Made by a program: the position numbers and the translations under genes. Positions 7,451 to 33,960 of a stretch of DNA of 64,000 nt are shown piece by piece (within the stretch, counting starts at the first letter, position 1; every line of letters begins with the position of its first letter). The stretch is from Trogon surrucura. Taxonomy: Eukaryota; Chordata; Aves; Trogoniformes; Trogonidae. The stretch lies in the NCBI GenBank assembly GCA_020746105.1, contig CM036626.1:18279001-18343000 (forward strand). Reading direction: 5' to 3'. The notes beneath the pieces are model-generated. The model worked only from the letters and a program-made list of their open reading frames with translations, was not told the origin of the DNA and made no database searches.

Positions 7451-7539
7451 GAATAGTTATTAACTATTTGTAGGTGTTAATCACAACTTTTTTTCCTTCC
7501 AATAGGATACTGTTTCCCTTGTAAGACTTCAGTTAGCAT
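7451..7539. repeat. 89-bp local duplicate, copy A
   Basis: Begins GAATAGTTATTAACTATTTG and ends GACTTCAGTTAGCAT. It matches 85 of 89 bases with copy B at 9076-9164, without gaps and in the same orientation. Flanks diverge at once on both sides. It contains the palindrome-like AGTTATTAACT. It is not part of any element I recognise. Confidence 0.85.
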
Positions 7540-9075: not shown

Positions 9076-9164
9076 GAATAGTTATTAACTATTTGTAGGT
9101 GTTAATCACAATGTTTTTTCCTTCCAATACGATATTGTTTCCCTTGTAAGACTTCAGTTAGCAT
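9076..9164. repeat. 89-bp local duplicate, copy B
   Basis: The partner of 7451-7539, 1,625 bp away in direct orientation, with four substitutions. It sits just beyond an AT-rich block (8740-9010). It is either a local duplication or two insertions of an unclassified repeat. Confidence 0.85.
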
Positions 9165-22602: not shown

Positions 22603-22728
22603 CTTGTGGAGGTGCCTTTCCTGACGTCGCAGATGCTGCATTTGAAGGCTTCGGCGCTGTTCCTGAAGGTGCACACGCTACAATCCCAAAAGCCTTCGTC
22701 GGCTGCAGGTTTGGCTTGCCTCTTCGGC
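22603..22728 (-). CDS. RYBP: RYBP coding exon 2: RanBP2/NZF-type zinc finger
   Basis: This 126-bp exon has 1 + 41 codons + 2 bases. It supplies the last base of Arg11, then residues 12-52 beginning [12 protein letters not shown], and ends in GTST plus two bases of the next Arg/Lys codon. The acceptor is CCTCAAG and the donor GTACGT. The zinc finger has the W-D-C-x2-C-x10-C-x2-C layout: Trp25, Cys27, Cys30, Cys41 and Cys44. Thr31-Phe32 sit where the TF pair of NZF domains contacts ubiquitin. In RYBP this finger binds ubiquitin, including H2A ubiquitinated at K119, the basis of PRC1 positive feedback. AAADEGF-type and CSICD residues match RYBP; YAF2 has PSSDEGY and CMMCD there. Basic residues 12-17 precede the finger. 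The coding sequence is intact, with no stop or frameshift. Phase 2 at both ends means skipping would stay in frame. Confidence 0.96.
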
Positions 22729-22756
22729 CTTGAGGAGGGGGAGGGAGACGGGGAGA

Positions 22757-22784
22757 GTGTGTGTGTGTGTGTGTACGTGTGTGT
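22757..22784. repeat. (GT)n/(CA)n microsatellite beside the RYBP exon 2 acceptor
   Basis: A 28-base GT repeat, interrupted once by AC, is read as CA in the RYBP transcript. It ends about 28 bases above the exon 2 acceptor, next to a C/T-rich tract. CA repeats near splice sites are known targets of hnRNP L, so length variation here could affect exon 2 inclusion. Confidence 0.85.
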
Positions 22785-23070
22785 TTGGGGAGGAGGAGAG
22801 AGGCGGCGGGAGGAGGAGGAGGGAGAGGAGGAGGAGAGAAAGAAAACACACACATGAGAAACCATGTTACAGAGCTCCGAAACCCAGCGCCTGCTCCTAC
22901 CTCCCCCCCGCCCCGCGCCGGGAACAGCCGCCCAACACCTCCCGGGACCGGCGAGAGGTGCGGGGCGGCCCCGCGCTCCGCCCCCGGCCCCGGCAGGGCC
23001 CAGACGCGCCGGGCCGCGCCGAACCGGGCCGGGCCGGCCGCCTCCCCCGGCACCGCGGCGGGGGCCATCC

Positions 23071-23110
23071 CCCTCCCTTCCCTTCCCTTCCCTTCCCCTC
23101 CCCTCCCCTC
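23071..23110. repeat. CCCTT/CCCCT short tandem repeat
   Basis: A run of CTTCC and then CTCCC pentamers lies within RYBP intron 1 in the CpG island. It is purine-only on the gene strand, the kind of tract that can form triplex or be sequenced poorly. Confidence 0.75.
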
Positions 23111-23316
23111 GGAAGGAGGGTGGGAGGGTGGGTGGGAGAGTTTGAAGGCTGGGAGGCGCGTTCCCTCCTCCACCTTGTTAAACCTCCCTTTGTCTGGGAG
23201 CAGCGAGTGCGCGGAGCGGGAGCGCAGCGAGCGGAGCCGCCATGGCTGCTCTCACGCCGCACCAGCCCTGGCACCGGCGCCGAGACACCGGCACTCCTCC
23301 TCCTCCTGCCCTTCCA

Positions 23317-23334
23317 CGCTCCCTCCATCTTAGG
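23317..23334. promoter_or_regulatory. YY1-core repeat word, copy 1
   Basis: The word CGCTCCCTCCATCTTAGG is identical here and at 23440 and 23641. The reverse strand reads CCTAAGATGGAGGGAGCG. The published YY1 motif is close to AAGATGGCGGC, and this word matches 9 of those 11 positions, with the invariant ATGG core intact. Copies 1 and 2 share 22 bp (AGCC follows both). The sites are in RYBP intron 1, 0.1-0.45 kb downstream of the start codon. YY1 binding is inferred from sequence only. Confidence 0.6.
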
Positions 23335-23439
23335 AGCCTCCCTCCCTCCCCTCCCCGCCCGCAACCCCTTCCCCCCTCCTCTCCCCGGCCCCCCGCGTAC
23401 CTGGCGGGGCGGTGCGGGCACGCCGCCCCCCTCCCCGAG

Positions 23440-23457
23440 CGCTCCCTCCATCTTAGG
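23440..23457. promoter_or_regulatory. YY1-core repeat word, copy 2
   Basis: This copy is identical in all 18 bases to copy 1, 123 bp away, and the match extends 4 bases further (AGCC). The sequence between copies 1 and 2 is not repeated between copies 2 and 3, so this is not a simple tandem array. Confidence 0.6.
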
Positions 23458-23640
23458 AGCCCCTCGCCGCCGCCGCGCCCCCCCCCACCTCTTCCTCCCT
23501 CCTTCCCTCCCCTTTCCCCCGCGGCGGAGCACACGCACGCAACTACCAGCCAGGGGCCTACCCACCGCCATCCCCTCCCGCCGAGCCGGGCCCGCCGCCG
23601 CCGGCGGGGCAGGGGCAAGGGGCAGGGGCGGCCGCCGCCG

Positions 23641-23658
23641 CGCTCCCTCCATCTTAGG
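23641..23658. promoter_or_regulatory. YY1-core repeat word, copy 3
   Basis: This third identical 18-base copy lies 201 bp beyond copy 2 and 62 bp from the exon 1 donor. The flanks differ: a CCG run precedes it and TACCTC follows. All three copies have the same orientation. Confidence 0.6.
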
Positions 23659-23719
23659 TACCTCTTCCCCCCCACCCCATCCCGCTCCCCGCCCGCCCCC
23701 CCCCCGCGCCCCCGCTCAC

Positions 23720-23751
23720 CTGGTCGGGCTCTTCTTGTCGCCCATGACCAT
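23720..23751 (-). CDS. RYBP: RYBP coding exon 1 (start codon to first donor)
   Basis: Read on the minus strand, this exon gives ATG GTC ATG GGC GAC AAG AAG AGC CCG ACC AG, i.e. MVMGDKKSPT plus two bases of an Arg codon, followed at once by the donor GTGAGC. Human RYBP begins MTMGDKKSPTR, so only residue 2 differs, and the paralogue YAF2 begins MGDKKSPTR. The first ATG has a weak context (T at -3), while the second (codon 3) has G at -3 and G at +4. Leaky scanning to Met3 would give a YAF2-like N terminus. The upstream leader contains no ATG for at least 240 bases. If intron 1 is retained, the next in-frame codon after Arg11 is TGA, so the unspliced RNA encodes only 11 residues. The exon is too short to be seen as an ORF; it is supported by match and splice phase. 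Confidence 0.92.
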
Positions 23752-32400: not shown

Positions 32401-33898
32401 TAATAGTAAACTCCTTCAAAGAAAACTTGCTTCAAGCCAAAACACATTTGCCAAGTTTCAAGTAAATGTGAGTTTTCACAATGCTGTAATAAACACCTCA
32501 ATATGGGGGTTTCAAAATGAGAATGCTGAGACAACTTTGCTCCAAGCAGTTAAAACATATATGTAATATATAGCTTTTGTTTTTTAAGGAAAAATCAAAC
32601 TACCCCAAGGAGACATTTAATGGTGCTTCAGTTATATATATATAAACCCCCCCTAAAAAACACAAACAAAAACCACAAAGAAAACAAAATGAAAAGCCAT
32701 GGATTCATCTGTTGTCCACCATCCCAGCCACACAGGAGGGTGCAGGCAGGAGCAGGTCTCTCCCCAGAACCAGATCACGGGTTTGGATGCTGTTGCAGCA
32801 GATTAGCCTGGGAACACGACAGGAAGGAAGAGTTTCCCGGAGAGAGAAGTTGTCTACTGCAGAAATGCTCTTGCAGAACCTACCTGGCCATTTTACCTTG
32901 TCCAGATTCCAGCCAGGATTCCCGTGGACTCTGTGACACTCAGAGCTGATTTCTGAGCCCAACGCTTCCTTGCCCCAGCACCGCACTGTGGCTGTAGGCA
33001 CCGTATGGCCTCCAGCGAGGTTTTCCAGCAACGCATAGCGATGGTGTGAGCCATCGAACATTCCTGGGACTGGAAGAGTCTCAGTTCTCGGCTGCTCAAA
33101 TGCGGAATGGCTTTTCTTGTCCTTTGGCTGGTGCATAAGGTGGTTATCCCATACAAAAATGCCTTTAAATCCAATTTAGGCATTAAGAGGGAAAAACCCC
33201 AAAACATCCGTGAGTGCCGCGTGGTAGCTTAGGTGCTGTGGTCAATTTTGTGGCTGCAGAGGGGACAGCGGTGCTGCTGTCTTCAGTCCAAAATTAGTGT
33301 GTGGTGCTGCCAGTTCCAGCATCCCTGCAGAGACGAGCGGCAGGACCTCGCTGCCAGGGGCACCAATGGCCTTAGGCTGGTTTTAATTCTGTTCAGCGCC
33401 CTCGTGCCATTACAGACAAAATGGATTGGGAAAGCTGGAGCCAGAGAACAAGCCACGTTTCTTTGGGGGAAGAGGCCACTTTTGGGACCATAGCCATGAG
33501 TTAGCTGAACTTGTCCAAATAAAGGGAGAAGAAAAAGCTACTTACGTTGTTTCTGCAGCCTCAGAGCAGTACGTTTCCCTAGGATCAATTTGCAACAGGT
33601 TGCTGTATTCCAAGACAAAATTAATCTTACACCAGGACAATGAATTAAAGAAAAAAAAAAAAAGAAAAGCTTCCTGCCTTCATTGCTAAAAGAATTAATC
33701 TTCTGCTGAGAGCTTCCTTTTCTACTTTCTGAGTGGCCACCTTGCTTTCATTCAAGGAAAGCCCAAGCAGGAAAGTAAAACCGTTTCCAGGTGGTTTTGG
33801 TTAAAGCAAACAAAGAGCTGTGAATCGTGTCAGAGCCTGGTTTCAGGCAGGGCAGAAGGTGGAGGGTTAGCCAGAAAGAAAGAACCGCTGCCACTGGT
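29441..33898. other. Intergenic DNA, nothing recognised
   Basis: Contains a 10-G run (30695-30704) and a short TA repeat (about 32633-32644). No repeat family, exon or RNA gene is recognised. Open frames on both strands at 31.2-31.7 kb are overlapping and contradictory, typical of stop-poor GC-rich DNA. Confidence 0.5.
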
Positions 33899-33960
33899 CT
33901 AATTAGGTGGAATAGCTATTAGCAATTCCACCTAATTAGATAATTAGATTAATTATCTAA
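33899..33960. promoter_or_regulatory. Double hairpin with five TAATTA words
   Basis: Stem 1: CTAATTAGGTGGAAT (33899-33913) pairs perfectly with ATTCCACCTAATTAG (33925-33939). After one A-A mismatch, GCT/AGC pair further around an ATT loop. Stem 2: TTAGATAATTA (33936-33946) pairs perfectly with TAATTATCTAA (33950-33960) around GAT. The stems overlap by 4 bases, so they are alternatives. TAATTA, the core of many homeodomain proteins, occurs at 33900, 33933, 33941, 33950 and 33958, the last four spaced 8-9 bp apart. It is either a dense homeodomain binding element or a small palindromic insertion. Confidence 0.55.

Follow-up and report, generated by a model that had tools for sequence, protein, structure and literature searches.

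Three identical copies of an 18-bp word with a YY1-like core in the first intron of RYBP in Trogon surrucura

Three exact copies of an 18-bp word, each with a YY1-type core, stand in the first intron of RYBP, and this triplication is confirmed as real and non-random. We hold with about as much belief as doubt a reading, drawn from the sequence, in which the three words are copies of a locus-specific composite element that is probably bound by YY1 below full strength and tunes the transcription of RYBP. If so, a simple and mutable three-site element would tie how much RYBP, a variant-PRC1 subunit, is supplied to the level of YY1, and the link between YY1 and Polycomb could be tested at a single endogenous locus.

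The triplicated word and its gene

The window, a stretch of 64,000 nucleotides, carries on its minus strand a gene that was identified as RYBP by the match of its spliced exons to the RYBP chains 9dby_M and 8pp6_K (50 of 50 residues, E about 3.5e-30). The coding end of exon 1 (23720..23751, minus strand), which was placed by the spliced reading with the donor GTGAG, encodes MVMGDKKSPT and ends in the AG of a split codon, and exon 2 (22603..22728, minus strand) encodes a RanBP-type zinc finger (Pfam PF00641, E 9.9e-10). Intron 1 (22729..23719, minus strand) is 991 bp long, with the donor GTGAGCGGGG and the acceptor CTCAAG, and most of it is covered by a CpG island; between 22800 and 23799, taken as five bins of 200 bp, GC content is 0.71-0.79 and CpG o/e 0.66-0.89. 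The spliced reading and the chain match together support the placement of the words in the first intron of RYBP, as an earlier note on this DNA had proposed.

A search of the window recovered the three exact copies of CGCTCCCTCCATCTTAGG that had been reported at 23317, 23440 and 23641, all in the same orientation. Word A (23641..23658, minus strand; CCTAAGATGGAGGGAGCG on the gene strand), word B (23440..23457, minus strand) and word C (23317..23334, minus strand) lie 62, 263 and 386 nt past the donor, respectively, so that together they cover nucleotides 62 to 403 counted from the intron 1 donor, or 342 bp in all. The identity extends to 22 bp between B and C and to 19 bp between B and A. The spacers are 105 and 183 bp long, as had been stated, and a tandem-repeat finder with the default score reports no array over the words, in agreement with the claim that they do not form an ordinary one. 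Apart from the three copies, the 64 kb window holds no match to the 18-mer at up to 3 mismatches; the next-best match has 4 mismatches, and intermediate copies are absent. Shuffled controls gave a mean of 0.09 matches and none of 100 shuffles gave three. The longest word occurring thrice in RYBP intron 1 has 18 letters, compared with a maximum of 12 in 500 dinucleotide shuffles and of 14, reached once, in 500 order-2 Markov sequences.

We then searched the whole genome (1,165,559,148 bases in 164 contigs; the counts for repeats are lower bounds). At up to one mismatch, three places were found, all in RYBP intron 1, and none for the reversed control. At up to three mismatches, the 492 places found are hardly more than the 476 for the reversed control, and there is therefore no dispersed family. 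With no further genome copies at up to one mismatch, a dispersed repeat or transposon fragment is ruled out. The exact 18-mer had no match in viral contigs, and searches for relatives of the RYBP peptide returned none from 137 pattern stretches in the genome contigs and none from 17 in viral contigs. In the open-licence literature, four sub-words of the 18-mer were not found, and none of the titles and abstract openings listed there mentions YY1 sites in the first intron of RYBP. A paper by Kang, Chung and Kim from 2009, reportedly on genome-wide clustered YY1 sites, as its title has it, would be the most likely to include this intron.

The core as a candidate YY1 site

The gene-strand core of the word is AAGATGG, and 9 of 11 positions fit the longer motif AAGATGGCGGC, exactly as the earlier note had counted; at 9/11 positions, the high-affinity YY1 consensus is not matched. 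The intron thus holds three AAGATGG cores of the YY1 type, spread over a few hundred bp. A scan with an approximate YY1 matrix was less favorable to the proposed YY1 cluster: two other sites in the window scored higher, and the words took no more than the third to fifth ranks.

How commonly each form of the site is used was assessed by counting genome places against reversed patterns, with ratios that are rough because, for some forms, the pattern and its reversal are not matched in CpG content or GC boxes. On these terms, the consensus form CAAGATGGCGGC is enriched (481 places vs 4), whereas the exact form at RYBP, TAAGATGGAGGG, is not (95 vs 124); TAAGATGGCGGC and CAAGATGGAGGC were found at 62 and 131 places vs 3 and 29 in the control, and for TAAGATGGCGGG (14 vs 10) enrichment is not clear. 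These counts imply that a core preceded by T and a core followed by A are each used, and that the combination found at RYBP is not widely used. RYBP is also the only locus among all 95 exact places of TAAGATGGAGGG at which more than one of them lies within 1 kb.

Published evidence on a site of this kind comes from the ATP6V1A promoter. In the accessible text of the study, a competitor oligo for its YY1-1 site, with AAGATGGAGG in its sequence, was able to compete against a YY1 probe for the lysate complex in an EMSA (PMC5462774). The RYBP word shares AAGATGGAGG with this oligo, although the competition was that of the ATP6V1A oligo and the bases flanking the common core, as given there, are unlike those in the RYBP word. 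From the core and this one published oligo we infer binding of YY1 at the RYBP words, and the core is, on its sequence, a plausible YY1 site, probably of sub-maximal strength.

Comparison with the YY1 gene and other loci

The YY1 gene of the same genome, on contig C10, has a cluster of cores shortly past its own intron 1 donor. Two ATGG cores (C10 33912643 and 33912672, minus strand) lie just after exon 1, followed on the plus strand by an imperfect core (33912695) and by AAGATGGCGG three times (33912711, 33912772 and 33912790). According to the accessible text of Kim, Yu and Kim 2009 (PMC2743690), the YY1 intron 1 of most vertebrates has a conserved cluster of five mostly consensus sites in about 100 bp, two in one direction and then three in the opposite one, with the third overall being imperfect. 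The cluster was tested there by ChIP and reporter assays; mutation of the sites cut promoter activity, and excess YY1 repressed the YY1 gene through them. The species list in that text contains no bird, and RYBP goes unnamed in the paper. With six cores (two plus four) rather than five, the cluster in this genome is close, but not identical, to the published one.

In both genes, which belong to one protein circuit, several YY1-type cores are gathered in a few hundred bp early in intron 1. They differ in that the published YY1-gene sites are mostly consensus and in two orientations, whereas the three 18-bp words of RYBP are identical, depart from the consensus and all point the same way. Moreover, at the YY1 gene of this genome the bases around the cores vary from site to site, so that identity past the core is absent there, unlike in the RYBP words.

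This difference bears on the question of which protein the word serves. YY1 is a four-finger protein, and its footprint is shorter than the 18 to 22 bases of identity. Another protein with a long footprint, or a fixed pair of proteins, might therefore be what recognises the word, with the YY1 core incidental or forming only a part of it. The excess of the identity over the YY1 footprint, the lack of genome-wide enrichment of the exact YY1-like 12-mer and the variable flanks at the YY1 gene all favor such a factor. On the other side, AAGATGGAGG is present in a working YY1 competitor oligo, as far as the accessible text describes it, and a generally acting factor with the exact 18-mer as its motif would be without other targets, since the word at up to one mismatch was found nowhere else. 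We regard this explanation as rather unlikely.

To place the RYBP cluster among other genes, we compared 52 loci, each 2.5 kb or longer and together 234 kb when overlaps are counted, among which the YY1 locus was included on purpose. Three same-strand AAGATGG cores within 350 bp were found only at the RYBP place, represented by four overlapping loci, and at the YY1 gene. A paralogue of RYBP on C1 was named YAF2 because its exon 2 is 85% identical over 41 residues. Its short intron 1 carries ATGGCGGC once in sense and AATGGAGG once in antisense orientation; the same cluster is absent from this paralogue, and AAGATGG was not found in the 3.1-kb YAF2 locus, which counts against the YY1 reading.

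The Peg3 imprinting control region, to which the cluster had been likened, is similar in having an unusual YY1-site cluster near the first exon, and mutation of that cluster pointed to control at the level of transcription (PMC5526879, accessible text). As described in that text, Peg3 is imprinted and mammalian, unlike RYBP, at which there is no sign of imprinting, and the words of RYBP, unlike the Peg3 cluster, repeat one another exactly.

Two further groups of YY1-type sites were noticed in the genome. At C1:50662700-50663100, three CAAGATGGAGGC and one AAAATGGAGG, all in the same orientation and with an A-form YY1-like core, lie within about 90 bp of CpG-poor sequence (o/e 0.31). A CpG-rich stretch at C2:110595500-110595800 has a pair of consensus YY1 sites that face opposite ways, their starts separated by 22 bp.

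Flanks and origin of the copies

The right flanks of word C (23335..23380) and word B (23458..23503), each a possible diverged copy of the other, agree in register at 33 of 46 positions, a score reached in none of 1630 other registers, although four of these positions are part of the 22-bp identity. Without these first four bases, 29 of 42 positions agree, which 2 of 1630 registers reach. The outcome of this test varies with the length chosen: the flanks agree at 12/20 positions (6% of registers as good) or 44/80 (0.25%), and, without the four word-adjacent bases, at 11/20 (318/1630 registers) or 36/60 (6/1630), so that over 20 bases nothing is notable. The right flank of A agrees with that of B or C at 24/46 positions, and about 1 in 10 other registers is as good. 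The left flanks agree at 6/20 positions in every pair; over 80 bases, A shows weak agreement with the other two (39/80 and 40/80, with 2.0% and 0.7% of registers as good). In a local-alignment test, 10% of null alignments were as good as that of the B-C right flanks and 2.3% as good as that of the A-B left flanks.

These comparisons suggest that copies B and C stand on a diverged local duplication in which the flank has decayed and the word has not. The B and C flanks are thus perhaps related, and of the earlier statement that the spacers are unrelated only the lengths hold firmly, the unrelatedness being uncertain. If the duplication is right, an 18/18 word beside a decayed flank would point to the whole 18-bp word, and not just its YY1 core, having been kept by selection or homogenised. 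It is easy to make too much of this, because the limits of the word were set by its identity.

Local duplication also opens a simpler explanation, that short neutral duplications arose in a GC-rich, slippage-prone island and have no function. The possible relation of the B and C flanks speaks for it, and short, sharp-edged local duplication is seen elsewhere in the window: an 88-bp segment occurs twice (7451-7538 and 9076-9163), its copies being 95% identical up to sharp edges, beyond which the flanks are unrelated; genome-wide, only these two copies were found, and the segment has no obvious function. A comparable event may be recorded at the CpG-rich C1:215142900-215143300, where two CAAGATGGCGGC consensus sites, each preceded by GCCTCGTTG and set in related flanks, are spaced by 66 bp, so that a YY1 site has apparently been multiplied through local duplication. 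What speaks against neutrality is the word itself. If B and C are duplicated, the flank has kept 72% of its positions and the word 18/18; 0.72 to the power of 18 is 0.0027, a figure that assumes uniform divergence and, with word limits chosen by identity, overstates the case. Word A, in which clear right-flank homology is absent, is still identical at 18/18 positions. We consider a purely neutral origin unlikely.

A possible YY1-dependent control of RYBP

On our preferred reading, a composite element bound by YY1, local duplication would have multiplied the element and selection would have kept its sequence. YY1 would bind the AAGATGGAGG core below consensus strength, and the constant flanking bases would provide an extended or composite contact. 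Several sub-maximal sites could render RYBP transcription responsive to the amount of YY1, with activation of RYBP at normal YY1 and damping at high YY1, as in YY1 intron 1; such dose sensing at RYBP is proposed because of the analogy with the intron 1 cluster of the YY1 gene. The YY1 reading of the earlier note has thus held in several respects, namely the core, the position in intron 1, the non-random and locus-only occurrence and the parallel with the YY1 gene, while the lack of enrichment of the exact form and the perhaps related pair of spacers weigh on the other side.

The autoregulatory loop that had been suggested, in which YY1 acts at RYBP, may be drawn by analogy with the YY1 gene. 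Recruitment of RYBP itself to the words by YY1 is a weaker step and remains speculation. A broader version is tentative and rather doubtful: RYBP and its partner YY1 might both be dosed by intron 1 clusters of YY1 sites through one sensor, with the cluster of RYBP built from a genome-unique 18-bp composite word of a sub-maximal core and a fixed second contact.

Some published work counts against a direct reading. The link from YY1 to the level of RYBP that was found in print runs via miR-9 (PMC4511530, accessible text), and another printed link between YY1 and RYBP is a miR-29 loop. In the accessible text of a review, the regulators named for RYBP transcription are KLF4 and SP1 (PMC5867070).

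The words might also act as downstream promoter elements, with sense YY1 cores placing or supporting alternative transcription starts. All three words are sense and within the CpG island, and in human LINE-1, YY1 bound at the 5' end determines the transcription start site, according to the accessible text of PMC11602158. The position of the words past the coding part of RYBP exon 1 argues otherwise, and we judge this role improbable.

Less probable still is an element at the RNA level, a small pre-mRNA hairpin near the splice donor. Words B and C do fold into a 6-bp stem with the loop AAGAUGGA, but the stem is partly broken in word A without compensation, the fold z-scores are -0.57 (A), -2.30 (B) and -1.38 (C), and Rfam gave no match at the gathering score in the window.

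Elsewhere in the window, an inverted 16-mer, ATTCCACCTAATTAGA, was noted at 33898-33940, with its arms 27 bp apart from start to start.
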